Assembly (NCBI GenBank): GCA_016213205.1
Contig: JACRAZ010000060.1
Span: 186,001 to 250,000 of the forward strand
Direction of reading: 5' to 3'
DNA: 64,000 nt
Source of the DNA: Burkholderiales bacterium
Lineage (GTDB): Bacteria; Pseudomonadota; Gammaproteobacteria; Burkholderiales; Burkholderiaceae_C
Position 1 is the first letter of the stretch, and every line of letters starts with the position of its first letter. The translations under genes and the position numbers were made by a program. Under the pieces are notes generated by a model, which was not told the DNA's origin, ran no database searches, and saw nothing but the letters and a program-made list of their open reading frames with translations. Positions 15,939 through 50,404 of this stretch are shown piece by piece.

Positions 15939-16580
15939 ATGGCAGACCCCGCACCAGCCCTGCGCATCGTGATCGTGGCACCAGAGTCCCTGGTGCCCGA
16001 CCCCGACGACGACGACGCCGACGCTCACGGCGCCGCCGAGCGCTCGCGGCAGCTGCGCATCGGCCTGCTCGAGACGGGCTACAACATCGTCGCGGTGCTG
16101 CCCTCGGACATGTTCCTGCCGGAGCGGCTGGCGCAGATCCAGCCCGACCTGATCATCGTGGACGCCGAGAGCCAGGCCCGCGACACGCTGGAGCACGTGG
16201 TCATGGCCACGCGCGACGCGAGGCGGCCGATCGTGCTGTTCACCGACGACAACGACACCTCCCACGTGCGCGACGCCATCGCGGCCGGCGTCTCGGCCTA
16301 TGTGGTGGCCGGCCTGGCCCCGACCCGCGTGAAGCCGGTGCTCGAAGTGGCGATGGCGCGCTTCCAGGTGGAAGAGTCGATGCGGCGTGAGCTGGCCGAT
16401 GCGCGCAGCCAGCTCAGTGACCGCAAGCTGATCGAACGCGCCAAGGGCCTGCTGATGAAGCGCCAGGGCCTCAGCGAAGACGAGGCCTACGCCCGCCTGC
16501 GCAAGACCGCGATGGACAAGGGCCTGAAGATCGCCGACCTGGCCCAGCGCATGATCGATGCGGTGGACCTGCTGGGCTGA
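15939..16580 (+). CDS. nasT: NasT-like ANTAR-domain response regulator
   Basis: This is an RNA-binding antitermination regulator of nitrate assimilation. The 213-residue protein has a receiver-like domain (about 8-140), a linker helix, and an ANTAR domain (about 155-211) containing [25 protein letters not shown]75 sits where the phosphorylated aspartate is expected. The acidic pair near the N-terminus is replaced by APE, and the conserved lysine before the last strand is absent (YVVAGLAP). A non-phosphorylated pseudo-receiver is therefore likely. In known systems NasT is held by a NasS nitrate sensor; no nasS is adjacent. Downstream genes encode a nitrate transporter with an ANTAR-type leader. 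Confidence 0.88.
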
Positions 16581-16658: not shown

Positions 16659-16675
16659 TTGGCACGCCGATTGCT
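16659..16675 (+). promoter_or_regulatory. Sigma-54 promoter of the nrt operon
   Basis: TTGGCACGCCGATTGCT matches the sigma-54 consensus TGGCACG-N4-TTGC perfectly, with GG at 16661-16662 and GC at 16673-16674, ten bases apart. Transcription would start near 16686, just before the ANTAR hairpins. This implies control by an enhancer-binding protein, most likely NtrC under nitrogen limitation. Confidence 0.85.
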
Positions 16676-16687
16676 CATGCCCTGACA

Positions 16688-16744
16688 GGAAGATCAACGG
16701 CGATCTTTCGAACAACACCGCAGGCCCGTCAATGCTGATGGGCC
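16688..16744 (+). promoter_or_regulatory. ANTAR-type two-hairpin antitermination element in the nrt leader
   Basis: Two hairpins lie in tandem. The first has an 8-bp stem (16688-16695 with 16702-16709, one G-U pair) around the loop AACGGC. The second has an 8-bp stem (16723-16730 with 16737-16744, one G-U pair) around AATGCT. Both six-base loops have A at position 1 and G at position 4, the known recognition signature of ANTAR RNA-binding proteins. A 13-base linker separates them and a terminator follows. This is the expected target of the NasT-like protein encoded just upstream. Confidence 0.85.
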
Positions 16745-16758
16745 AGCGGCAGGACGAT

Positions 16759-16814
16759 GGCGTCCCCACCCGCGGCCAGCCCTGGCTGCACGGTGAGGAC
16801 GCCTTTTCTTTTTC
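16759..16814 (+). terminator. Leader terminator of the nrt operon
   Basis: GGCGTCC (16759-16765) pairs with GGACGCC (16797-16803), enclosing a GC-rich arm with its own inner stem. TTTTCTTTTT follows directly. It sits between the ANTAR element and nrtA, so it would stop nrt transcription unless an ANTAR protein stabilises the upstream hairpins. Confidence 0.85.
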
Positions 16815-16838
16815 TGTTGCCCGAAACGAGAGACCACC

Positions 16839-38741: not shown

Positions 38742-38759
38742 CGGCGCGCGAACGCGCCG
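38742..38759 (-). other. GC-rich hairpin after the B12 aptamer, possible expression platform
   Basis: A perfect 7-bp stem (38742-38748 with 38753-38759) closes a four-base loop that reads TTCG on the RNA strand, directly after the aptamer. A second stem (CGGGCC with GGCCCG) follows. There is no T run, so control is more likely by translation or rho than by intrinsic termination. Confidence 0.45.
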
Positions 38760-38761
38760 AA

Positions 38762-38950
38762 CCCCCTGTTGGCCGGTATCCGGGCTGGCGGAGACGACCC
38801 CTGTGGCCTTCCCAGCTGCAGGGGCAGCCAGTGGCTCAAAGACACAGGAGCGGGAGCACGAAGGCTCCGTCCGCTTACCGTTGCGGGGGCAGCGCAGGTT
38901 GGGTCGTGTCCGGGGGACGACGACACGCCTGCTTCCCGTTTAACCTGGCC
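38762..38950 (-). promoter_or_regulatory. Cobalamin (adenosylcobalamin) riboswitch
   Basis: Read on the minus strand, the conserved blocks appear in order: ACGGGAAGCAGG near the 5' end, GCTGCCCCCGCAACGGTAAG, GAGCCACTGG, CTGGGAAGGC, and the closing CGCCAGCCCGGATACCGGCC. This is the class I B12-box architecture. It sits in the leader of btuB and should repress btuBCD when cobalamin is abundant. The 377-bp gap between btuB and the next gene is mostly this element and its platform. Confidence 0.95.
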
Positions 38951-39052
38951 CCGCATGACGCGTGGCCAGAGCACCAACAACGCGCATCGTACCAGTGCAC
39001 TCTTGCGCGGCGCCTACAATCCCCTGCATTCCCAGACGGCATCGGGCGGCCC

Positions 39053-39875: not shown

Positions 39876-40340
<465 letters not shown>

Positions 40341-40348
40341 GCCACACG

Positions 40349-41167
40349 ATGGGCATGTTCCTCGAACCGACGCTCGTCGGCGGCCTGTTGCTGCTGGGTG
40401 CGGTGGCGGGCTTCCTGGCCGGCATGCTGGGCATCGGCGGCGGCATGATGATGGTGCCGTTTCTCACCTACATGCTCACGCAGCACGGCATCGAGCCGGG
40501 GCTGGCGGTGAAGATGGCGATCGCCACCTCGATGGCCACGATCCTGTTCACCTCGCTGTCCAGCGTGCGTGCCCACCACCAGCGCGGTGCGGTGCAGTGG
40601 CCCATCGTGCGGCACCTGGCGCCGGGCATCGTGCTGGGCGGGCTGGCGGCCGGCGGCGGCGTGTTCGCGCTGGTCAAGGGCCAGGCGCTGGCGCTGTCAT
40701 TCGCACTCTTCGTCGGCTTCTCCGCCACGAAGATGCTGGTCGGGCAGAAGGCCTCGGCGGACCGCCAGCTGCCCGGCCCCTGGGGCCTGGCGGCCGTGGG
40801 TTCGGGCATCGGCTTTGTCTCGGGCCTGGTGGGCGCGGGTGGCGCGTTCATCTCGGTGCCGTTCATGACGCGGTGCAACGTGCCCATCCACCAGGCCGTG
40901 GCCAGCAGCGCCGCGCTGGGCCTGCCGATCGCGCTGGCCAACACGGTGGGCTATGTGCTCAGTGGCTGGCATGTCTCGGCCGCGATGCCGGGCAGCCTGG
41001 GCTACCTGGTGCTGCCGGCGCTGGGCATCATTGCGGTCGCCAGCGTGACGATGGCGCCGCTGGGCGCGCGCGCGGCCCATGCGATGGACACGCGCCAGCT
41101 CAAGCGTGTGTTCGCGCTGCTGCTGTACAGCCTGGCGGGCTACATGGTGTGGCGGGCCCTGGCCTGA
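40349..41167 (+). CDS. TauE/SafE-family sulfite exporter-like permease
   Basis: This inner-membrane permease has 272 residues and about eight hydrophobic helices. The two repeats carry the glycine signatures FLAGMLGIGGGMMMVP and FVSGLVGAGGAFISVP. Members export sulfite, sulfoacetate or other organosulfur anions; the substrate here is not readable. ATG 40349 is used; ATG 40355 would remove two residues. It is probably cotranscribed with the EVE gene. Confidence 0.88.
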   Translation: MGMFLEPTLVGGLLLLGAVAGFLAGMLGIGGGMMMVPFLTYMLTQHGIEPGLAVKMAIATSMATILFTSLSSVRAHHQRGAVQWPIVRHLAPGIVLGGLAAGGGVFALVKGQALALSFALFVGFSATKMLVGQKASADRQLPGPWGLAAVGSGIGFVSGLVGAGGAFISVPFMTRCNVPIHQAVASSAALGLPIALANTVGYVLSGWHVSAAMPGSLGYLVLPALGIIAVASVTMAPLGARAAHAMDTRQLKRVFALLLYSLAGYMVWRALA

Positions 41168-41191: not shown

Positions 41192-42214
41192 TCAGCCGAA
41201 CTTGATGCTGGCCAAGGCCACCGAGTTGCCACCACGCTTGCGCGCCGATTCGAGCGCAGCCTCGCACGCGGCGATCACTTCGTCCTGGGTGTGCGCGGTG
41301 TGCGGGTAGCTGGCCACGCCCATCGAGACCGTGAAGCCCAGCTCCTGCCCATCGAGCGCGACGATCTGCGTGGCGCACTGCCGGCGCAACCCTTCCATGC
41401 GCGAATGCGCCGTGGCCAGCCCCACGCCCGAGAGCAGCACCGCGAAACGGCGGTTGTCGATGCGGCAGGACGCATCCATTGCCCGCGTATTGCCGCGCAG
41501 CAGCCGGCCCATCGATTCGTGGATGCGCTCGAGCGCGCGCTCGCCGAAGGCCCGCACCTTGTCGGTGAGCGGGTCGATCTCCATGTAGACGAGCGCGAAC
41601 TCGCGGTGCTCGCGGGTGGAGAGGTCGACCTCGCGGCGCATCTGGTCATCGAAGTGGCCGCGGCTGGACAGGCCCGTGGCCTGGTCGCGCAGGCCGGTGT
41701 CGCCGAGCTCGCGACGCAATGCGACGTTGGCCTTTTGCTGCTGCTCGAGCTGTTCGAGCGCGGCCTTGAGCTGGGTTTCGCGCTGGCGCCCCGCGGCCAG
41801 GTCCTGCCACACGCTGCACAGCAGGCGGCGGCCGTCGAGCTCGCACACGGCGCGCAGCACCGACCACTCGCGGCGTTCGCCGCGCCAATCAAAACGGTGC
41901 TCGCTGCTCAACGCCGCGCCGTGCGCCAACGCGGTGTTGTCGGCCGTGCGCAGCAGGTGGGCCAGAGGGGCGTCCAGCAGTTCGGCATCGGTGCGGCCGC
42001 GCAGCTGGTCGGCCGGGCGGCCCAGGAAGGCGGCCATGGCTTCGTTCACCAGCAGATAGCGCCCGTCCGCGGCATCTTTCAGGCCCAGCATCCAGCCCTG
42101 CTGCGCCGCCAATGCCTGCAGCGCCTGCGCCATGACCTGCAAGGCCACCGGGCCGACCTGCGGCGCCAGGCCTGGGATGCCGGACGCGCCAGCGCTTTCG
42201 GACAAGGCGTTCAT
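41192..42214 (-). CDS. PAS domain protein with degenerate GGDEF domain
   Basis: This signalling protein has 340 residues. A PAS-like sensor domain spans about 35-140 (LKDAADGRYLLVNEAMAAFLGR), a coiled coil about 145-172, and a diguanylate-cyclase-like domain about 175-338 (DQATGLSSRGHFDDQM). The GGDEF signature is replaced by DNRRF at 253-257, so it is very unlikely to make c-di-GMP. It may bind a nucleotide or act through dimerisation. ATG 42214 (MNALSESAG) was chosen. It is convergent with the TauE gene and adjoins the ANTAR-PilJ gene on the same strand. Confidence 0.82.
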   Translation of the reverse strand: MNALSESAGASGIPGLAPQVGPVALQVMAQALQALAAQQGWMLGLKDAADGRYLLVNEAMAAFLGRPADQLRGRTDAELLDAPLAHLLRTADNTALAHGAALSSEHRFDWRGERREWSVLRAVCELDGRRLLCSVWQDLAAGRQRETQLKAALEQLEQQQKANVALRRELGDTGLRDQATGLSSRGHFDDQMRREVDLSTREHREFALVYMEIDPLTDKVRAFGERALERIHESMGRLLRGNTRAMDASCRIDNRRFAVLLSGVGLATAHSRMEGLRRQCATQIVALDGQELGFTVSMGVASYPHTAHTQDEVIAACEAALESARKRGGNSVALASIKFG

Positions 42215-42358
42215 CGGTCGGTGCCGTCGAGGACAGGGGCGTGGGGTGGAGAAGGAGGCTTCGGGGACTGTCGCATTCTGGGCGGCACGTGTTCCGCGAA
42301 TCAATCCAACGTTTGTTCGTCAGTTCTCCCTAGGTCGCGATGATACCCAGCCGGGGGG

Positions 42359-43627
42359 TCAGCCCAGGAGCACCTGCATGTTGTGCTCGTACAGCGATGT
42401 CAGGCGCTCGAAGCTCTGCAACAGGGCCTCGCTCTCGCGGGCCAGCACCACCCGCCCGTCACGGGCCAGCCCGGGCCGCATGCCCTCGAGCAGGCGCTGC
42501 CACTGGCCACGCGCCACGGCCAGGGTGGAGCGGATCTCCTCGCTGGCCAGGGGGGCCTGCTCCAGGCGCTGCAACGCGGCGTCGAACTCGGCCACCGTGG
42601 CCAGCGCATCGGTGGCCTGCGCCTGGGCCTGGCCCTGCGGCAGGACGCTGGCCAGCAGGGCGTGCTTGGCCACCCGCTGCGCCAGCATGCGCTGGCGGCC
42701 ACTGAGGTTCACCAGCTGCAGGCTGGGCCGGCCGCTGGCAGCCTGCAGCCCATCGGTGAGTGCCTGCGCGTGCTCGAGCAGTTGTGCGGCTGCGGCGTCG
42801 ATGGCCAGCAGGTCGGCCGGCGGCTGCAGCGCCAGCTGGGCCTGCAGCGCCTGCCAGGCCTGCCGGGTGGCCAGCCGAAGCGCCTCCAGCGCGGGCGACA
42901 CGCCCAAGCCCGCCAGGTGATCGATGCTGGCCTGCACGCGCACGACGGAGTCGCGCATCAGGGTGTCGGCGAGGGCCCGCTCGATGCCGATGTGCTCGAG
43001 CACCCTGGCCTTCACGATGCGTTGCGAGAGCATGCGCAACTGGCCCGCGCGGTTCACCGCGTCGGCGGATTCCGCGGCCTCGATCACGGCCCGCGAGACC
43101 TCGCCCACGCGCAGGTTGGTCTGCATCGAGGCCGTGCGCAGCAGCGCGAACGCGTCGGGCTCGCTGAGCTGCTGCGCGCTCATCAGCACGCCCTTGGCCC
43201 GGTCGACCCACTTGCGCTCGTCCAGCCGGGCGTGCACGCCGGCCAGTTCGCGCTGCAGGGCCTGGTGGCGCTGGAACAACGCGCGCGACAAGGGCAGGGC
43301 CATCGTCACCTGCTCCACGCTGCAAGGGCCTGCAAAACACTGTGTCACGCCGCCGGCCGCCGCCTGCTCGGCCGCTTCGGCCCGGAACTGGCGGCAGAAC
43401 AGCAGCACTGGAACGGCGCACGCGGCCTGCAACAGGCCGAGGCTGGTGAACAAGGCCTCGTCCGCCACGTCCACCTGCACGACGACCATTTCCGGTGCAA
43501 GCCGCACGGCCTCCCGCACCAAGTTGCAGCAGGCCGTGGCGCCGGCTACACGCAGGCCGGCGCTGTACAGGTGCGCCGCAACGGCCTGCGCCATGGCTTC
43601 TTCTGGGGCAGCAATCAACAAATGCAT
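42359..43627 (-). CDS. Pseudo-receiver/ANTAR/PilJ-repeat nitrate regulator
   Basis: This 422-residue fusion has three parts. Residues 1-120 form a receiver-like domain with Q51 where the phospho-aspartate should be. Residues about 133-186 form an ANTAR RNA-binding domain (ERKWVDRAKGVLMSAQQLSE). The rest contains two PilJ/NIT-like repeats marked by NRAGQLRMLSQRIVKA (192-206) and NLSGRQRMLAQRVAKH (307-321). These motifs resemble the P-box of nitrate sensors. There is no signal peptide or membrane segment, so sensing would be cytoplasmic. It looks like a one-protein analogue of Klebsiella NasR with the domain order reversed. It is divergent from narK. Confidence 0.85.
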   Translation of the reverse strand: MHLLIAAPEEAMAQAVAAHLYSAGLRVAGATACCNLVREAVRLAPEMVVVQVDVADEALFTSLGLLQAACAVPVLLFCRQFRAEAAEQAAAGGVTQCFAGPCSVEQVTMALPLSRALFQRHQALQRELAGVHARLDERKWVDRAKGVLMSAQQLSEPDAFALLRTASMQTNLRVGEVSRAVIEAAESADAVNRAGQLRMLSQRIVKARVLEHIGIERALADTLMRDSVVRVQASIDHLAGLGVSPALEALRLATRQAWQALQAQLALQPPADLLAIDAAAAQLLEHAQALTDGLQAASGRPSLQLVNLSGRQRMLAQRVAKHALLASVLPQGQAQAQATDALATVAEFDAALQRLEQAPLASEEIRSTLAVARGQWQRLLEGMRPGLARDGRVVLARESEALLQSFERLTSLYEHNMQVLLG

Positions 43628-43946
43628 CTCTGCGGGCCCTGGGGCCGGATCGTTCAATCCGCCAAGCATAGGCCACAGCCCCGTGCCGCCCTGGCCGAGG
43701 CCGGCGGCACGCTTGTTGCATAGCAGCATGCGCCGGGCGTAACGACGCGCCCGCGCCTCGTCCCGCGCCGCATGCATGGCGCCTTGCCGGGCTGGCCACG
43801 CCCCCGCATCGGGGTTGCCGTGAAGGCCAGCCGCCGTCAAGGCCAGACGCCGCCGCGCCCCCCGCCCCGATCACCCGCTGCCATTGGCCCGCATCCGGCC
43901 GCCGATGGGATCGCGGCCATGCCCCGTGCCCCACACAGACACCACC
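43628..43946. other. 319-bp divergent intergenic region between the ANTAR-PilJ gene and narK
   Basis: This region should hold the promoters of both divergent genes. It is very GC-rich and has several short inverted repeats, for example GGCCGC/GCGGCC near 43898-43919. I found no hairpin pair with the A1/G4 six-base loops seen in the nrt leader. The only sigma-54-like spacing matches have poor -12 elements. Confidence 0.6.
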
Positions 43947-45224
43947 ATGTCGTCCTTCAAGACCTTCCTTCGTGCCGGACACACCCCGACGCTCGTCGCG
44001 TCGTTCATGTACTTCGGCTTCTCATGCTGCATCTGGGTGCTCAACGGCGCGATGGCGCCGTTCATTAGCGAGACCTACCAGCTCAGCGCGGCGCAGAAGG
44101 GCCTGATGCTCTCGATCCCGATCATCGCCGGGGCGCTGATGCGCTTTCCGCTCGGCGTGCTGGCGCAGTACATCGGCCGCAAGAACGCCACGCTGGTCGA
44201 GATGGGGCTGATCGCGGTGGCGATGCTCTACGGCTTCTTCTTCGTGGACAGCTTCAACGACCTGCTCAAGATGGGCGTGCTGCTGGGCATTGCCGGTGCG
44301 AGCTTCGGCGTGGCGCTGTCGCTGGGCTCGGGCTGGTACCCACCCCAGCACAAGGGGCTGGCGATGGGCCTGGTGGGCGCAGGCAACGTGGGCACCGCCG
44401 TGTCGGTGCTGGTGGCGCCGCCGCTGGCGCAGTGGCTGGGCTGGCAGGCGGTGTATGCCGTGGCCGCGGCCGCCATCATGCTGCCCATCCTCACGGTGGT
44501 GCTGTTTGCCAAGGAGCCCCCGGATGTCGACTCGCACGCCGACTTCCGCTCGCACATCGCCTGCCTCTTCGAGCGGGACGGCTGGGCCTTCAGCCTGATC
44601 TACGGGGTCACGTTCGGCGGCTTCATCGGCCTGACCACCTTCCTGCCCTCGTACTACTACGACCAGTTCGGCGTGAGCAAGGTGCAGGCCGGCCAGCTCA
44701 CGATGCTGGCGGCCTTCATGGGCGCCGCGCTGCGTGTGGCCGGTGGCTGGATCTCCGACCGCTGGGGCGGCGTGAACACGCTGACGCTGGTGCTGGTGAT
44801 GGTGAGCGTGTGCCTGGTGCTGGTGGCGCTGTCCACCGGTTCGCTGGTGGGCACCACGCTGCTGCTGATGCTGTGTTTTGCCGCGCTGGGCGCGGGCAAT
44901 GGCGCGCTGTTCCAGCTGGTGCCGCTGCGCTGGCCCACCACCACCGCGGTGGCGGGCTCGATGATCGGCGAGATCGGGGCGTTGGGCGGTGGCCTGGTGC
45001 CCAACGCGATGGGCCTGTCCAAGCAGTACCTGGGCACCTACGCCTGGGGCTTCGTGCTGTTCGCGGTGCTGGGTGTGGTGATGCTCGGCGTGATGCGCGT
45101 GATGCAGATCCGCTGGACCCGCACCTGGGCCGAAAAAGGCGGCCGCGCCCGCAGCGCCGCAGCGCCTGTCGCCACGGCACGCGTGGCGCCAGCCAAGCTC
45201 AGCCCGCGCAGCGGCCGCCCGTGA
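43947..45224 (+). CDS. narK: Nitrate/nitrite MFS transporter, NarK family
   Basis: This is a 12-helix major facilitator for nitrate uptake or nitrate/nitrite exchange. The 425-residue protein has the nitrate signature glycine stretches LGIAGASFGVALSLGSGWYPP and LGAGNGALFQLVPLRWP, and AGALMRFPLGVLAQYIGRKN with the conserved arginine region. I chose ATG 43947 (MSSFKTFLRAGHTP). It provides a second nitrate entry route beside the nrt ABC system and adjoins the assimilatory reductase genes. Confidence 0.92.
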   Translation: MSSFKTFLRAGHTPTLVASFMYFGFSCCIWVLNGAMAPFISETYQLSAAQKGLMLSIPIIAGALMRFPLGVLAQYIGRKNATLVEMGLIAVAMLYGFFFVDSFNDLLKMGVLLGIAGASFGVALSLGSGWYPPQHKGLAMGLVGAGNVGTAVSVLVAPPLAQWLGWQAVYAVAAAAIMLPILTVVLFAKEPPDVDSHADFRSHIACLFERDGWAFSLIYGVTFGGFIGLTTFLPSYYYDQFGVSKVQAGQLTMLAAFMGAALRVAGGWISDRWGGVNTLTLVLVMVSVCLVLVALSTGSLVGTTLLLMLCFAALGAGNGALFQLVPLRWPTTTAVAGSMIGEIGALGGGLVPNAMGLSKQYLGTYAWGFVLFAVLGVVMLGVMRVMQIRWTRTWAEKGGRARSAAAPVATARVAPAKLSPRSGRP

Positions 45225-45256: not shown

Positions 45257-46963
45257 TCATCGCGGCAGGAACAGCAGCCACACGACCAGCAGGCCGTTGA
45301 AGGCCAGCGACACGGCCAGCGCGATCTTCCACATCGCGGTGGGGTCGCGCGCCACCAGGGGCGTGGCCGTGGGCGCGGCCAGTGGCCGCGAGGCACCACG
45401 CTCCAGCGCGAGCACCAGTTCCTCGGCGGTCTCGAAGCGCAGGCGCCGGTCGCGCGCCACGGCCTTGAGCACCACATGGTCCAGCCAGATCGGCACCTCC
45501 GGCCGCACGCGCGAGGGCGGCACCGGGTCGCGCCGGTAGCGCATGGTCTGGTAGGGCTCGATCTCCCCGTAGGGCAGCCGGCCGCTGAGCCAGCGGTACA
45601 GCGTGACGCCCAGCGCGAACAGGTCGCTCATCGCGTCGGCCTGGCCGCCCTCCTCCCATTGCTCGGGGTTCATGTAGCTGGGCGTGCCGGCGTGCAGGCT
45701 GCGCACCGATTCGGGCTCGTTGCCGGACACGGCCACGCCCAGATCGAGCAGGCGCCACTGGCCATCGTCGGCCAGGTGCAGGTTGGCGGGCTTCACGTCG
45801 CGGTGCACCACGCGCTGGCGGTGCAGCCGGCCCAGCGCGCGCGCCATGGCCAGTGCGCCGGCCACCACCTCATCCACGCTGAAACGGCGGCCCTCCACGA
45901 GCATCTGCTCCAGCGTGGCACCGCTGTGCCAGTCGAACACCACGTAGAAGGCGCTGGGCGATCGTTGCGGCCGCACCCGCACGAAGCCCTGGGCCTGGCG
46001 TTCGGTCACCGTCTGCCCGAGCCAGGCCTCGTGGGCCAGCATCGCACGCTCCTCGGGGTCGGCGGCGCGGCTTTCGTGCAGGGTCTTGAGCGCCACCAGC
46101 GCACGGCTGTCGTTGTCGCGCGCCTGGTAGAGCCGGTGCACACCCGTATCGGCCACCAGCGCAGTGATGGTGTAGCCATCGATGACCTCGCCCACCTTCC
46201 AGCGTGGTGCGGCGGGCAACTGGCGTCCCTGCAGCACCGCGTCGTCCAGGCGCTGGCTCGCCAGGCCGCGCACCTGCACCACCAGCGCGGTGACGTTGTC
46301 GTGGCTGCCGGCGGTCAGCGCCGCCTGCACGATGCCCTCGCTCACCGCCTGGGCGGTGCCTGCCGTCGCCAGCGCCTGGGCCAGCTGGCGCTGCTTGAGC
46401 ACGCCGTGAACACCGTCGCTGGTGAGCAGCATCACGTCGCCCACCTGCAGCGCGCCCTGGTGGAAGTCCACCCGCACCGTGTCCTCCAGGCCCAGCGCGC
46501 GGGTGAGCTGGCTGCGCAGGTCTGGGTGGTCCAGGGCATGGTCCTGCGTCAGGCAGATCAGTTCGCCGTCGCGCAGCAGCCAGGCGCGTGTGTCGCCCAC
46601 GTGGGCCACGGTCCAGGTCTGGCCCTGCAGCACCAGCGCGGTGAGCGTGCTCAGGCCCGAGGCGTCGTCGCTGCGGCGGCGGTTGTGGTCGGCCAGCCAG
46701 GCGTTGTGGGCACCGATCAGGCGGTCCAGGGCCACGGTGGTTTCCCAGGTCGCAGGCACCGCGGGGAAGTCGGTCACCAGCGAGATCACCGCGGTCTGCG
46801 CCGCGGCGCGGCCATGGCCGCCGGCCGAGACGCCATCGGCCACCGCCGCGATCAGGCCGCGCGCGGCCTCCTGCGGCGGCGCCTGCCAGGCCGCGGCGAA
46901 GTCCTCGTTGTGCGGCCGGTGACCCCGTTCGCTGCAGTGGCCGATGTCGACATGAAAGCTCAT
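45257..46963 (-). CDS. PP2C phosphatase/serine-threonine kinase fusion protein
   Basis: This 568-residue protein joins two opposite activities. Residues 1-230 are a PP2C phosphatase with D43 in AAVADGVSAGGHG, GDTRAWLLRDG and a final GSHDNVTALVV. Residues about 262-530 are a protein kinase with K293, HRD at 387-389 (HRDVKPANL) and DLG in place of DFG at 407-409. The glycine-rich ATP loop is poorly conserved. Residues about 544-566 form one C-terminal membrane anchor. It lies between narK (convergent) and nirB (divergent, 80 bp away), so a role in nitrate assimilation is inferred from position. Confidence 0.88.
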   Translation of the reverse strand: MSFHVDIGHCSERGHRPHNEDFAAAWQAPPQEAARGLIAAVADGVSAGGHGRAAAQTAVISLVTDFPAVPATWETTVALDRLIGAHNAWLADHNRRRSDDASGLSTLTALVLQGQTWTVAHVGDTRAWLLRDGELICLTQDHALDHPDLRSQLTRALGLEDTVRVDFHQGALQVGDVMLLTSDGVHGVLKQRQLAQALATAGTAQAVSEGIVQAALTAGSHDNVTALVVQVRGLASQRLDDAVLQGRQLPAAPRWKVGEVIDGYTITALVADTGVHRLYQARDNDSRALVALKTLHESRAADPEERAMLAHEAWLGQTVTERQAQGFVRVRPQRSPSAFYVVFDWHSGATLEQMLVEGRRFSVDEVVAGALAMARALGRLHRQRVVHRDVKPANLHLADDGQWRLLDLGVAVSGNEPESVRSLHAGTPSYMNPEQWEEGGQADAMSDLFALGVTLYRWLSGRLPYGEIEPYQTMRYRRDPVPPSRVRPEVPIWLDHVVLKAVARDRRLRFETAEELVLALERGASRPLAAPTATPLVARDPTAMWKIALAVSLAFNGLLVVWLLFLPR

Positions 46964-46994
46964 AGGGCGCCGATTCTGGCCTGCGCGGCCGGTG

Positions 46995-47011
46995 CTGGCA
47001 CCGCGATTGCT
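46995..47011 (+). promoter_or_regulatory. Sigma-54 promoter of nirB
   Basis: CTGGCACCGCGATTGCT has GG at 46997-46998 and GC at 47009-47010, ten bases apart, a near-perfect sigma-54 element. The start of transcription would fall near 47022, giving a leader of about 22 bases. There is no room for an ANTAR element, unlike in the nrt operon. GGTGC-TG-GCACC overlaps the -24 box. Confidence 0.82.
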
Positions 47012-47043
47012 AATCCTGAAATGTGCTGGCTGGAGATCTGACG

Positions 47044-49503
47044 ATGAAGAAGATGAAACTCGTGATGGTGGGCAACGGCATGGCCGGCGTGCGCACGCTG
47101 GAAGAACTGCTGAAGATCGCACCGGACCTGTACGACATCACCGTGTTCGGCGCCGAGCCCCACCCGAACTACAACCGCATCCTGCTGTCGCCGGTGCTCG
47201 CGGGCGAGCAGACGATCGACGAGATCATCCTGAACCCGCTGTCCTGGTACGAAGAGAACCACATCACGCTGCACCTGGGCAAGAAGGTGGTCAAGGTCGA
47301 CCGCACCCGGCGCCTGGTGATCGCCGAGGACGGCACCGAGGCCGAGTACGACCGCCTGCTGCTGGCCACCGGCTCGAACCCGTTCATCCTGCCGGTGCCC
47401 GGCAAGGACCTCGACGGCGTGATCGCCTACCGCGACATCGCCGACACGCAGACGATGATCGACACCGCCAAGAGCTACAAGCACGCGGTGGTCATCGGCG
47501 GCGGCCTGCTCGGCCTGGAGGCCGCCAATGGCCTGATGCTGCGCGGCATGCAGACCACGGTGGTGCACATCATGCCGTGGCTGATGGAGCGCCAGCTCGA
47601 CGACGTGGCCGGCAAGCTGCTGCAGAAATCGCTCGAGGAGCGCGGCCTGAAGTTCATGATCGGCGCGCAGACCCAGGCCCTCGTCGGCGACAAGGACGAC
47701 GGCAAGGGCGGCCGCGTGATGGCCGTGCAGTTCAAGGACGGCACCGAGGTGCCGGCCGATCTCGTGGTCATGGCTGCGGGCATCCGCCCCAGCACCCAGC
47801 TGGCCGAGAGCATGGGCCTGCACTGCAACCGCGGCATCGTCGTCAACGACACGATGCAGACCATCACCGACCCGCGCATCTACGCGGTGGGCGAGTGTGC
47901 TGCGCACCGCGGCATCGCCTACGGCCTGGTGGCCCCGCTGTTCGAGCAGGGCAAGGTCTGCGCCACGCACCTGGCGCAGTTCGGCATCGGCCGCTACACC
48001 GGCAGCCAGACCAGCACCAAGCTCAAGGTGACCGGCATCGACCTGTTCTCGGCCGGCGACTTCATGGGCGGCGAAGGCACCGAGGAAATCGTGATGAGCG
48101 ACCCCTTCGGCGGCGTGTACAAGAAGCTGGTGATCAAGGACGACAAGCTCGTCGGCGCCTGCCTCTATGGCGACACGGTGGACGGCAGCTGGTACTTCAA
48201 GCTGCTGCGCGAGGGCCGGACCGTGCACGACATCCGCGACAAGCTGATGTTCGGCGAATCCAACATCGGCGACGTGGGCCACGAGGGCCACAACAAGGCC
48301 GCGGCCATGGCCGACACCGACGAGGTCTGCGGCTGCAACGGCGTCACCAAGGGCAGCATCTGCAAGGCTATCAAGGACAAGGGCCTGTTCACGCTGGACG
48401 AGGTGCGCAAGCACACCAAGGCCAGCGCGTCCTGCGGCTCCTGCACCGGCCTGGTGGAGCAGCTGCTGATGTTCACCGCCGGCGGCGACTACTCCGCCAC
48501 GCCCAAGAAGAAGGCCATGTGCGGCTGCACCGACGCCAGCCACGACGAGGTGCGCGAAGCCATCCGCAAGCCGCTGCCCGATGGCAGCAAGCTGCTCACC
48601 ATCGACGGCGTCTACCGCCAGCTCGGCTGGCGCACGCCCAACGGCTGCGCGAGCTGCCGCCCGGCGGTCAACTACTACCTGATCAGCACCTGGCCCAAGG
48701 AGGCCCGGGACGACCCGCAAAGCCGCTACATCAACGAACGCAGCCACGCCAACATCCAGAAGGACGGCACCTACAGCGTGATCCCGCGCATGTGGGGCGG
48801 CGAGACCACGGCGGCCGAGCTGCGCCGCATCGCCGATGCGGTGGACAAGTACAAGATTCCCACCGTCAAGGTCACCGGCGGCCAGCGCATCGATCTGCTG
48901 GGCGTGAAGAAGGAAGACCTGGTCAACGTGTGGCAGGACATCGGCATGCCCTCGGGCCACGCCTATGCCAAGGCCCTGCGCACCGTGAAGACCTGCGTCG
49001 GCAGCGAGTGGTGCCGCTTCGGCACGCAGGACAGCACGCAGATGGGCAAGGACCTCGAGCGCGCGCTGTGGCGCATGTATGCGCCGCACAAGGTCAAGCT
49101 CGCGGTGAGTGGCTGCCCGCGCAACTGCGCCGAGGCCGGCATCAAGGACGTGGGCGTGATCGGCGTCGACTCCGGCTGGGAGCTGTACGTGGCCGGCAAC
49201 GGTGGCATCAAGACCGAGGTGGCCGAGTTCTTCGTCAAGGTGAAGACGGCCGCCGAGGTGCTGGAGTACTCCGGCGCCTTCCTGCAGCTGTACCGCGAGG
49301 AGGGCTGGTACCTCGAGCGCACCTGCCACTACGTTGGCCGCGTGGGTTTGGACTACGTCAAGAAGAAGGTGCTCGACGACCACGAGAACCGCAAGGCCCT
49401 GTGGGCGCGACTGCAGTACGCACTGGACGGTGAACCCGACCCTTGGTTCGAGTTCGACAAGGCCCGGGTTGACCTGCGTCAGTTCTCCCCGGTATCCAAT
49501 TGA
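47044..49503 (+). CDS. nirB: Assimilatory nitrite reductase [NAD(P)H] large subunit
   Basis: This cytoplasmic siroheme enzyme reduces nitrite to ammonium with NAD(P)H. The 819-residue protein has an N-terminal FAD/NAD module (MKLVMVGNGMAGVRTLEELL). Two BFD-like cysteine motifs follow (VCGCNGVTKGSIC; ASCGSCTGLVEQ). The siroheme/[4Fe-4S] half carries CVGSEWCRFG and SGCPRNCAEAGIKDVGV. ATG 47044 follows a GGAG Shine-Dalgarno. No siroheme synthase gene is in the window. nirD follows, separated by the PilJ gene. Confidence 0.95.
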   Translation: MKKMKLVMVGNGMAGVRTLEELLKIAPDLYDITVFGAEPHPNYNRILLSPVLAGEQTIDEIILNPLSWYEENHITLHLGKKVVKVDRTRRLVIAEDGTEAEYDRLLLATGSNPFILPVPGKDLDGVIAYRDIADTQTMIDTAKSYKHAVVIGGGLLGLEAANGLMLRGMQTTVVHIMPWLMERQLDDVAGKLLQKSLEERGLKFMIGAQTQALVGDKDDGKGGRVMAVQFKDGTEVPADLVVMAAGIRPSTQLAESMGLHCNRGIVVNDTMQTITDPRIYAVGECAAHRGIAYGLVAPLFEQGKVCATHLAQFGIGRYTGSQTSTKLKVTGIDLFSAGDFMGGEGTEEIVMSDPFGGVYKKLVIKDDKLVGACLYGDTVDGSWYFKLLREGRTVHDIRDKLMFGESNIGDVGHEGHNKAAAMADTDEVCGCNGVTKGSICKAIKDKGLFTLDEVRKHTKASASCGSCTGLVEQLLMFTAGGDYSATPKKKAMCGCTDASHDEVREAIRKPLPDGSKLLTIDGVYRQLGWRTPNGCASCRPAVNYYLISTWPKEARDDPQSRYINERSHANIQKDGTYSVIPRMWGGETTAAELRRIADAVDKYKIPTVKVTGGQRIDLLGVKKEDLVNVWQDIGMPSGHAYAKALRTVKTCVGSEWCRFGTQDSTQMGKDLERALWRMYAPHKVKLAVSGCPRNCAEAGIKDVGVIGVDSGWELYVAGNGGIKTEVAEFFVKVKTAAEVLEYSGAFLQLYREEGWYLERTCHYVGRVGLDYVKKKVLDDHENRKALWARLQYALDGEPDPWFEFDKARVDLRQFSPVSN

Positions 49504-49612
49504 AAGCGGACAGGGCCTGAGGACCTAATGGCTTAAACGGAGGGAGACGGCTGCCGACAATCGCAGGGCAGGGTTGTTGTCCCCGTCATTCCCCACCTCG
49601 AAAGCCACGATC

Positions 49613-50404
49613 ATGAATACCCTACGCCGCCGACTCGTTTCCTCCACCGCGCTGGCACTGCTGGTGCCACTGACCGGCCCGCGCGCGCAGGTGGTCGACC
49701 TGAACGACGCCATCAACAAGGCCGGGCGCCAGCGCATGCTGTCGCAGCGGCTGAGCAAGGCCTGGGTGGCACTCGGGCAGCAGGCCGAGGCCGCGCGGGC
49801 CGAGCGTGTGCTGTCCGACAGCATGGCGCAGTTCGACCGCCAGCTCATCGAACTGAAGGCCTACGCGCCAACGCCGACGATCCGCGGCACGTACCAGCAG
49901 CTCGACCCGGTATGGAGCGAGTTCAAGTCGGTGCTGGTGGGCGCCAAGCCCTCGCCCAAGGCGCTGGCCTCGTTGCTGGCACTGGATGACCGCATCCTCG
50001 CGCTGGCGCACCAGGGCACCCAGCAGCTCGAGCAGCACGGCGGCAAGACCCTGGGCCAGCTGGTCAACGTGGCGGGCCGGCAGCGCATGCTGTCGCAGCG
50101 CATGGCCAAGCTGCAGCTCGCGGTGATCTGGCGCGCCGACGCGCCCGGCGCCAAGGACCGCATCACGGCCGACCGGCGCGAGTTCAGCGCAGGGCTGGAC
50201 ACGCTGGCCACCTCGCCCCTGGCCACGCCGGCCATCCGCAACGAGATCATGCTCGCGCGCCAGCAATGGGTGCTGTTCGAGAACGTGCTCGGCCGCGCTT
50301 CGGGCAACCAACCCCAGGATGCCGCGACCGTGTTCGTTGCCAGCGAAAACATCCTCCAGGTGATGGAACAGATCACCACCCTCTTCGCGCGCTCCAGCGC
50401 CTGA
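49613..50404 (+). CDS. Exported PilJ/NIT-repeat protein
   Basis: This 263-residue protein has a Sec-like signal peptide (MNTLRRRLVSSTALALLVPL, cleavage after about residue 25). Two helical repeats follow, each led by the same motif: KAGRQRMLSQRLSKA at 36-50 and VAGRQRMLSQRMAKL at 153-167. It has no membrane anchor beyond the signal and no output domain. The motifs match those in the ANTAR fusion protein, so a periplasmic nitrate/nitrite-binding role is inferred. It separates nirB from nirD by 110 bp on one side and 23 bp on the other. Confidence 0.83.
   Translation: MNTLRRRLVSSTALALLVPLTGPRAQVVDLNDAINKAGRQRMLSQRLSKAWVALGQQAEAARAERVLSDSMAQFDRQLIELKAYAPTPTIRGTYQQLDPVWSEFKSVLVGAKPSPKALASLLALDDRILALAHQGTQQLEQHGGKTLGQLVNVAGRQRMLSQRMAKLQLAVIWRADAPGAKDRITADRREFSAGLDTLATSPLATPAIRNEIMLARQQWVLFENVLGRASGNQPQDAATVFVASENILQVMEQITTLFARSSA

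Follow-up and report, generated by a model that had tools for sequence, protein, structure and literature searches.

A gene in the assimilatory nitrate cluster of a Burkholderiales bacterium (42359..43627 (-) of the window, i.e. of the analysed 64,000-nucleotide stretch of DNA) encodes a protein of 422 aa, without an internal stop, in which a pseudo-receiver, an ANTAR domain and a tandem PilJ region follow each other in this order. We propose, with a probability of about 0.72, that this regulator is a one-component cytoplasmic sensor of nitrate (or nitrite) that acts on the leader RNA of the narK or nirB genes. A hairpin in the narK leader of the window is, on comparison of leader sequences, its likely RNA target.

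The receiver-like domain covers residues 1–103 (43319..43627 (-)) and was delineated by phmmer and a predicted beta-alpha pattern. The ANTAR domain (PF03861; residues 132–182; 43082..43234 (-)) was recognised by Pfam with E 2.8e-17 and 62.7 bits, the curated cut-off being 27.3. Beyond it are 240 residues with two stretches of PilJ (PF13675; E 3e-16, 59.9 bits, curated cut-off 26.6), which together with predicted fold matches define a first bundle (residues 186–299; 42731..43072 (-)) and a second one (residues 300–422; 42362..42730 (-)). The bundles contain the P-box/N-box-like motifs VNRAGQLRMLSQR (residues 191–203; 43019..43057 (-)) and VNLSGRQRMLAQR (residues 306–318; 42674..42712 (-)), respectively. 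The sequence-only reading had described this domain order, its reversal relative to NasR (here ANTAR precedes the sensor), a dead receiver with Q51 at the phospho-aspartate site and two repeats with RMLSQR-type motifs, and the present analysis bears out each of these points; the motifs are RMLSQR at residues 198–203 and RMLAQR at residues 313–318.

The regulator is largely confined to one family of Burkholderiales. Used as a query it matched 43 of 200 genomes of the same family at E 1e-20, and the architecture from ANTAR through the second PilJ was found in 34 of the 200 (its own genome included, counted from the individual matches); one more match, in G116, is cut by a contig end and is additional to these. 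The named relatives are two Aquabacterium genomes and a Comamonadaceae plasmid. In a search of 300 genomes of the order, G412 was the only genome outside the family with a full-length match free of stop codons. Two further candidate members in the order, G367 (81–415) and G212 (114–377), span ANTAR and PilJ positions but were not counted: both have stop codons, and tblastn recovers nothing but the tandem PilJ part at these loci (L098, L104). No full-length match outside the family was found at E 1e-18 in the class (274 genomes) or the phylum (299 genomes), absences that are not absolute since the genome searches score the best candidates of a first look (5–8 per genome). The remaining matches in the class and phylum are NasT-like (receiver-ANTAR) or tandem PilJ proteins without ANTAR. 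Because the architecture recurs in the 34 family genomes and its synteny is conserved, the open reading frame 42359–43627 is not a chance one.

In 34 of the 35 relatives' loci, hence in 35 of 36 with the window included, the regulator gene and narK or nirB of the assimilatory nitrate cluster are oriented divergently. The exception (L066) lies on a short contig with almost no upstream DNA and was dropped from the leader work; at another locus (L059) nirB is 1.7 kb from the regulator gene. Each of the 35 relatives' loci has at least one nitrate-cluster gene. The gene order in the window is PAS-GGDEF, regulator, narK, kinase/phosphatase (on the other strand), nirB, exported-type tandem PilJ, nirD, molybdopterin nitrate reductase and a YbiB-like gene. 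The names nasT, nrtABC, nirD and ybiB-like were assigned by us to the window genes; those of nirB, nirD and the kinase/phosphatase are also given in a database record. The divergent neighbour in the window encodes a NarK-type MFS transporter (43947..45224 (+); MFS_1 E 1.1e-37) and, from its synteny, is the likely controlled gene.

The sensor half is predicted to have the two-bundle NIT fold of NasR. Folded alone from one sequence (pLDDT 73.8), it matched NasR 4akk_A with Z 20.6 over 235 residues (rmsd 3.1); helical bundles reach middling Z easily, and this match spans both bundles and stands apart from the next one, at 14.8. The model of the whole protein, made from three sequences (pLDDT 81.5, pTM 0.64), matched NasR 4akk_B with Z 19.7 over 256 residues (rmsd 6.1), in first place after realignment of the candidates from Foldseek. 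In Foldseek alone NasR was absent among the best 50 matches of the full model, and the best ones were to EutV (E 1.4e-4, low TM-scores). Pfam gave no match to the NIT domain (PF08376) in the regulator up to E 1. A sequence profile of the sensor half, built with an exported tandem PilJ relative included, finds PilJ, McpN, NarX and NarQ (E 3.4e-5 to 0.027). Structure prediction and domain search, which had been suggested as a check on the first reading of the C-terminal part, thus both relate it to NIT/PilJ bundles.

The two boxes are the most conserved stretches compared, with mean pairwise identity of 89% and 77% in 31 sequences; the ANTAR domain has 59% and the remaining stretches 34–42%. One locus (L009), which scores exactly like L004, was omitted from this alignment. 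In both boxes the N, GxxR and M hardly vary, and G-x-x-R, named as a nitrate motif in the accessible part of PMC8199190, is present in 31/31 sequences in box 1 and in 30/31 in box 2. The exact N-box of McpN, given as [IVL]-[ND]-x-A-G-x-Q-R-M-L-[ST]-Q in PMC6381276, was found in 3/31 sequences for repeat 1 and 5/31 for repeat 2; the window protein deviates from it at one position in repeat 1 and at two in repeat 2. Such deviations would suit a tandem PilJ region that senses some other small ligand or only dimerises, with ANTAR still acting on the narK leader, and the same could be said of the tandem domain of Pseudomonas aeruginosa PilJ, for which the accessible part of PMC6381276 reports no nitrate binding and an N-box that is not conserved. 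However, the near invariance of both G-x-x-R motifs and the nitrate-cluster gene at every one of the 35 relatives' loci argue against a ligand other than nitrate, and we consider this alternative improbable.

The receiver fold of the N-terminus rests on phmmer and on the beta-alpha pattern of the predicted model (pLDDT about 55–79 in this part). The receiver-ANTAR protein Rv1626 (1s8n) matches residues 3–184 (phmmer, E 5.9e-13), and Pfam Response_reg had no match in the regulator up to E 1. The phospho-site column has Q51 in the window protein and D in 1 of the 31 aligned sequences, window included. The most hydrophobic 19-residue segment, averaging 1.98, is found at residues 59–77, within the receiver-like part, and the regulator therefore reads as a soluble, cytoplasmic protein. 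The receiver-like domain could be a docking site for a partner, as in AmiR/AmiC and NasT/NasS, and the regulator would then not be autonomous. The likeness of its receiver-ANTAR half to Rv1626, EutV and AmiR is in line with such docking, as is the occurrence, in 16 of the 35 loci, of a nearby PAS-GGDEF gene whose product is a conceivable partner. On the other side, the receiver-like domain is the least conserved region compared (mean pairwise identity of 34% in 31 sequences), a sensor is already present in the same chain, and no gene beyond the nitrate cluster is near in all loci, only the window's own neighbours having been looked for; dependence on a docked partner is accordingly doubtful, and an autonomous nitrate sensor is preferred.

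The ANTAR half has kept most of the residues expected at an RNA interface. Contacts in the EutV–RNA structure include K143, K147, Y164 (which stacks on loop G4), R168, M172, N173, R175 and R177; one hexaloop is described there as the minimal ANTAR motif, and loop position A1 as being without specific contact in the accessible text (PMC8934654), which fits the purine rule at loop position 1 reported below. Allowing K/R and Y/F exchange, equivalents of six of the eight contacts are kept in the regulator, each in 29–31 of 31 sequences: K139 for K143 (30/31), R143 for K147 (R in 30/31, K in one), F160 for Y164 (31/31), R164 for R168 (31/31), M168 for M172 (31/31) and R173 for R177 (29/31). The equivalents of N173 and R175 are not conserved in these 31 sequences.

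A candidate operator hairpin with a 7-bp stem and the hexaloop AACGAC (43741–43746) was found at 43734..43753 (+), close to where the narK transcript is predicted to begin, and is retained in the minimum-energy fold of the narK leader. It follows the sigma-54-type promoter match CGGCACGCTTGTTGCA (43705..43720 (+)), which agrees at 11/12 positions with the sigma-54 promoter consensus; 0/200 shuffles were as good. By the same consensus a match with 9–12 of 12 positions is present in 35/35 intergenic regions, and for 32 of the 35 no more than 2% of 200 shuffles reach the same score. A hexaloop hairpin with a score of at least 14 occurs within 46 bases after the match in 33/35 leaders versus 11.4% of 20,000 random windows drawn from the same loci, and in 32/33 hairpins versus 16.2% in the random windows the loop starts with a purine and has G as its fourth base (R1/G4), although the 35 leaders are relatives of one another rather than independent samples. 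The hairpin signal becomes clear only after anchoring the leaders on the sigma-54 match. For one leader (L061) the second-best match was used, the best one lying 36 bases before the gene, and for another (L053) one of two equal matches was taken. The leader of the out-of-family genome G412 (L092) also has the hairpin.

The stem of the candidate hairpin shows covariation. Alignment of 32 hairpins gave 31 cells with a double change versus 8.0 in shuffled alignments (0/500 as high), and sliding the pairing partner by 1–3 columns left 0–14 such cells. Counted by pair, the double changes (4 versus 2.7 shuffled, 73/500 as high) are not significant, and the 99.5% of cells that pair, versus 83.4% shuffled, is an inflated value because the stems were chosen by strength. 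Three of the 35 leaders were dropped from this alignment: L068 (no stem of at least 5 pairs), L046 (another hairpin chosen) and L050 (a near copy of L047). In L045 the strongest stem was exchanged for the hairpin with the expected loop when the alignment was made, though not in the hairpin counts.

A second R1/G4 hairpin was found in 14/34 leaders (L040, L042–L047, L049, L050, L053, L054, L059, L061 and L062), at a gap of 21–27 except in L046 (36), and was not found in the window leader or in its close relatives L004, L005 and L038. A terminator-like pattern of our own definition is present in 6/35 leaders, and in several relatives, e.g. L063, L065, L067 and L070, terminator-like stems and T runs lie downstream of the hairpin. 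A simple terminator scan found no intrinsic terminator in the window narK leader, a scan that is not decisive because it missed the long stem and T-rich sequence of the nrtA leader. The window narK leader is no more stable than its shuffles (z 0.78). A strict dual-hairpin scan of the window (C-G closing pairs, stems of at least 4, linker of at most 25) returned only 16688–16744 and one probable chance match, shuffled windows giving 0–2 matches each (n=10); it missed the narK hairpin because this is closed by U-G and a partner hairpin was not found. Loosening the scan to stems of at least 3, over 38 loci, gave 24 matches versus 15 in shuffles, mostly noise.

Control of nirB by such a hairpin where narK intervenes was considered but finds no support: 15 of 24 nirB upstream regions contain a separate sigma-54 match, and the R1/G4 hairpin, sought after the match in those 15, was found in 0/15. 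In the window, control probably falls on narK, since nirB has its own sigma-54 match without a hairpin. This second match of the window lies at 46996–47011, 32 bases before the nirB start, and no ANTAR-type hairpin follows it.

The sequence-only reading had named the RNA at 16688–16744 as the target of the regulator. These hairpins sit between nasT (15939–16580) and nrtA of nrtABC. The nrtA leader (16660–16815) comprises a sigma-54 match (16660–16675), hairpins at 16688–16709 and 16723–16744, and a third hairpin GGAC-GATGGC-GTCC (16752–16765), the 3' arm of which is the 5' arm of a long terminator-like stem; its folding z is -6.1, and the simple terminator scan found none in it despite the long stem followed by T-rich sequence. 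The element GGAC-RNNGNN-GTCC is present in 18/22 NasT-type leaders versus 0/35 leaders beside the regulator gene, the former having been hand-picked among those with a sigma-54 match and the pattern written after viewing some of them. Among the 18 are all 4 of the nirB leaders whose genomes gave no full-length match to the regulator. Among 33 regulator-bearing genomes searched, the regulator is the sole ANTAR match in two, G133 and G181, and their leaders (L052 and L051, respectively) carry the hairpin. Given the split of the GGAC element and these two genomes, the pairing with the 16688–16744 RNA is probably wrong, and the narK-leader hairpin fits better. The accompanying suggestion of a regulator that works without a partner is somewhat strengthened by G133 and G181, where no further ANTAR match was found. 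A role in the NasT operon, by binding of the nrtABC leader alone or as a NasT heterodimer, would agree with the presence of both ANTAR genes and both leaders in the window and with the clear A1/G4 hexaloops and terminator-like stem of the nrtA leader, but NasT itself adjoins that leader, the GGAC element sets the NasT-type leaders apart and two genomes have the regulator as their only ANTAR match, which makes this the least probable of the alternatives.

Under the preferred reading, with the narK or nirB leader as target, the following sequence of events could be envisaged. Under nitrogen limitation, transcription of narK, or of nirB in those relatives where narK is not located here, would be initiated by RNA polymerase carrying sigma-54, presumably with the help of NtrC. 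The transcript would form, near its 5' end, a stem capped by an R1/G4 hexaloop. Nitrate may bind between the P-box helix of one PilJ bundle and that of the other, and the tandem in one chain could imitate the dimer interface of NarX and McpN as well as the NIT domain of NasR with its two bundles. The model has one continuous helix (residues 174–213) in which the final helix of ANTAR passes into the first sensor box with its nitrate motif, and ligand binding could for this reason change how far the ANTAR domains are exposed or how they pair. The hexaloop would then be gripped by ANTAR and transcription would continue into the nitrate genes. Of this scheme the domains, motifs, synteny, promoter match and covarying hairpin are seen in the sequences and the folds are predicted; the ligand, RNA binding, sign of control and read-through are inferred from the protein families. 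We speculate that the receiver-like domain is a degenerate relic or a dimerisation platform and is not phosphorylated.

Among known systems, NasR of Klebsiella oxytoca is similar in coupling a two-bundle nitrate sensor to ANTAR in one chain, in controlling nitrate assimilation and in the NIT fold, which the predicted model of the regulator matches. The sensor of NasR comes first and ANTAR last (PMC7496416), whereas in the regulator ANTAR precedes the sensor, a receiver-like part is added and Pfam recognises PilJ rather than NIT. We infer from the model that the regulator may work like NasR, yet it is not classed as NasR because the domain order differs and the Pfam NIT search gave no match, though the fold agrees. 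NasT shares with it the receiver-ANTAR half, sigma-54 promoter matches and nitrate genes. According to the accessible part of PMC3795266, NasT is released by a separate sensor, NasS; the regulator, in contrast, has its sensor in cis, its chain extends beyond ANTAR and its leader signature differs. McpN, NarX and NarQ resemble it in the P-box/N-box-like motif with G-x-x-R and in four-helix PilJ-type bundles, but they are periplasmic and dimerise with one bundle per chain, while the regulator has two bundles in one chain read as soluble. EutV and AmiR also combine a receiver-like domain with ANTAR and act on hexaloop hairpins, as the candidate target of the regulator is; EutV is activated by phosphorylation and AmiR is controlled by AmiC (PMC3369931, PMC8934654), and both, unlike the regulator, are without a sensor of their own.

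The exported tandem PilJ protein encoded at 49574–50404, unlike the regulator, has an export-signal-like start and is without ANTAR. It is 33% identical to the C-terminal half of the regulator. A tree of tandem PilJ sequences placed the 31 regulators in one group versus 25 exported-type sequences with a support of 0.229, so that a single origin of the regulators is not established. As a tentative scenario, which we think less likely true than false, the regulator could be a second, independently assembled NasR: a NasT-like ANTAR protein would have acquired the tandem PilJ of an exported nitrate-operon protein, and its old receiver would have decayed as a result. It would work via a single hexaloop close to the very start of sigma-54 transcripts; with neither a second hairpin nor an intrinsic terminator in some lineages, this would be a mode of transcript control not known for ANTAR proteins.

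A description of the receiver-like/ANTAR/tandem-PilJ architecture was not recognised in the literature searched, which comprised one open library. If the proposed function is true, nitrate sensing and ANTAR RNA binding have come together on at least two occasions, with opposite orders of the domains. The unnamed regulator also gains a candidate target RNA. Continuity of the modelled ANTAR helix with the sensor helix that bears the first nitrate arginine means that the regulator and its operator would make a direct test of signal transfer possible. The pair also suggests a gate on nitrate uptake through narK that is separate from the NasT-linked ABC transporter of the same genome.

Several other features of the region and the genome were observed. 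The exported-type tandem PilJ protein of the nitrate cluster is perhaps a periplasmic nitrate binder, and twin-arginine-like signals were seen by eye in many of the 25 exported-type sequences. The PAS-GGDEF gene of the window is at 41192–42304 (-), and a TauE/SafE gene (40307–41167 (+)) is often kept beside the regulator. A protein that combines a kinase and a PP2C phosphatase (45257–47122 (-)) is encoded within the nitrate cluster of many relatives. A third, weaker ANTAR match occurs elsewhere in the same genome (G000:C16:34007-34129; L003), and a cobalamin riboswitch was found in the window at 38754–38993 (-), with 83.7 bits.
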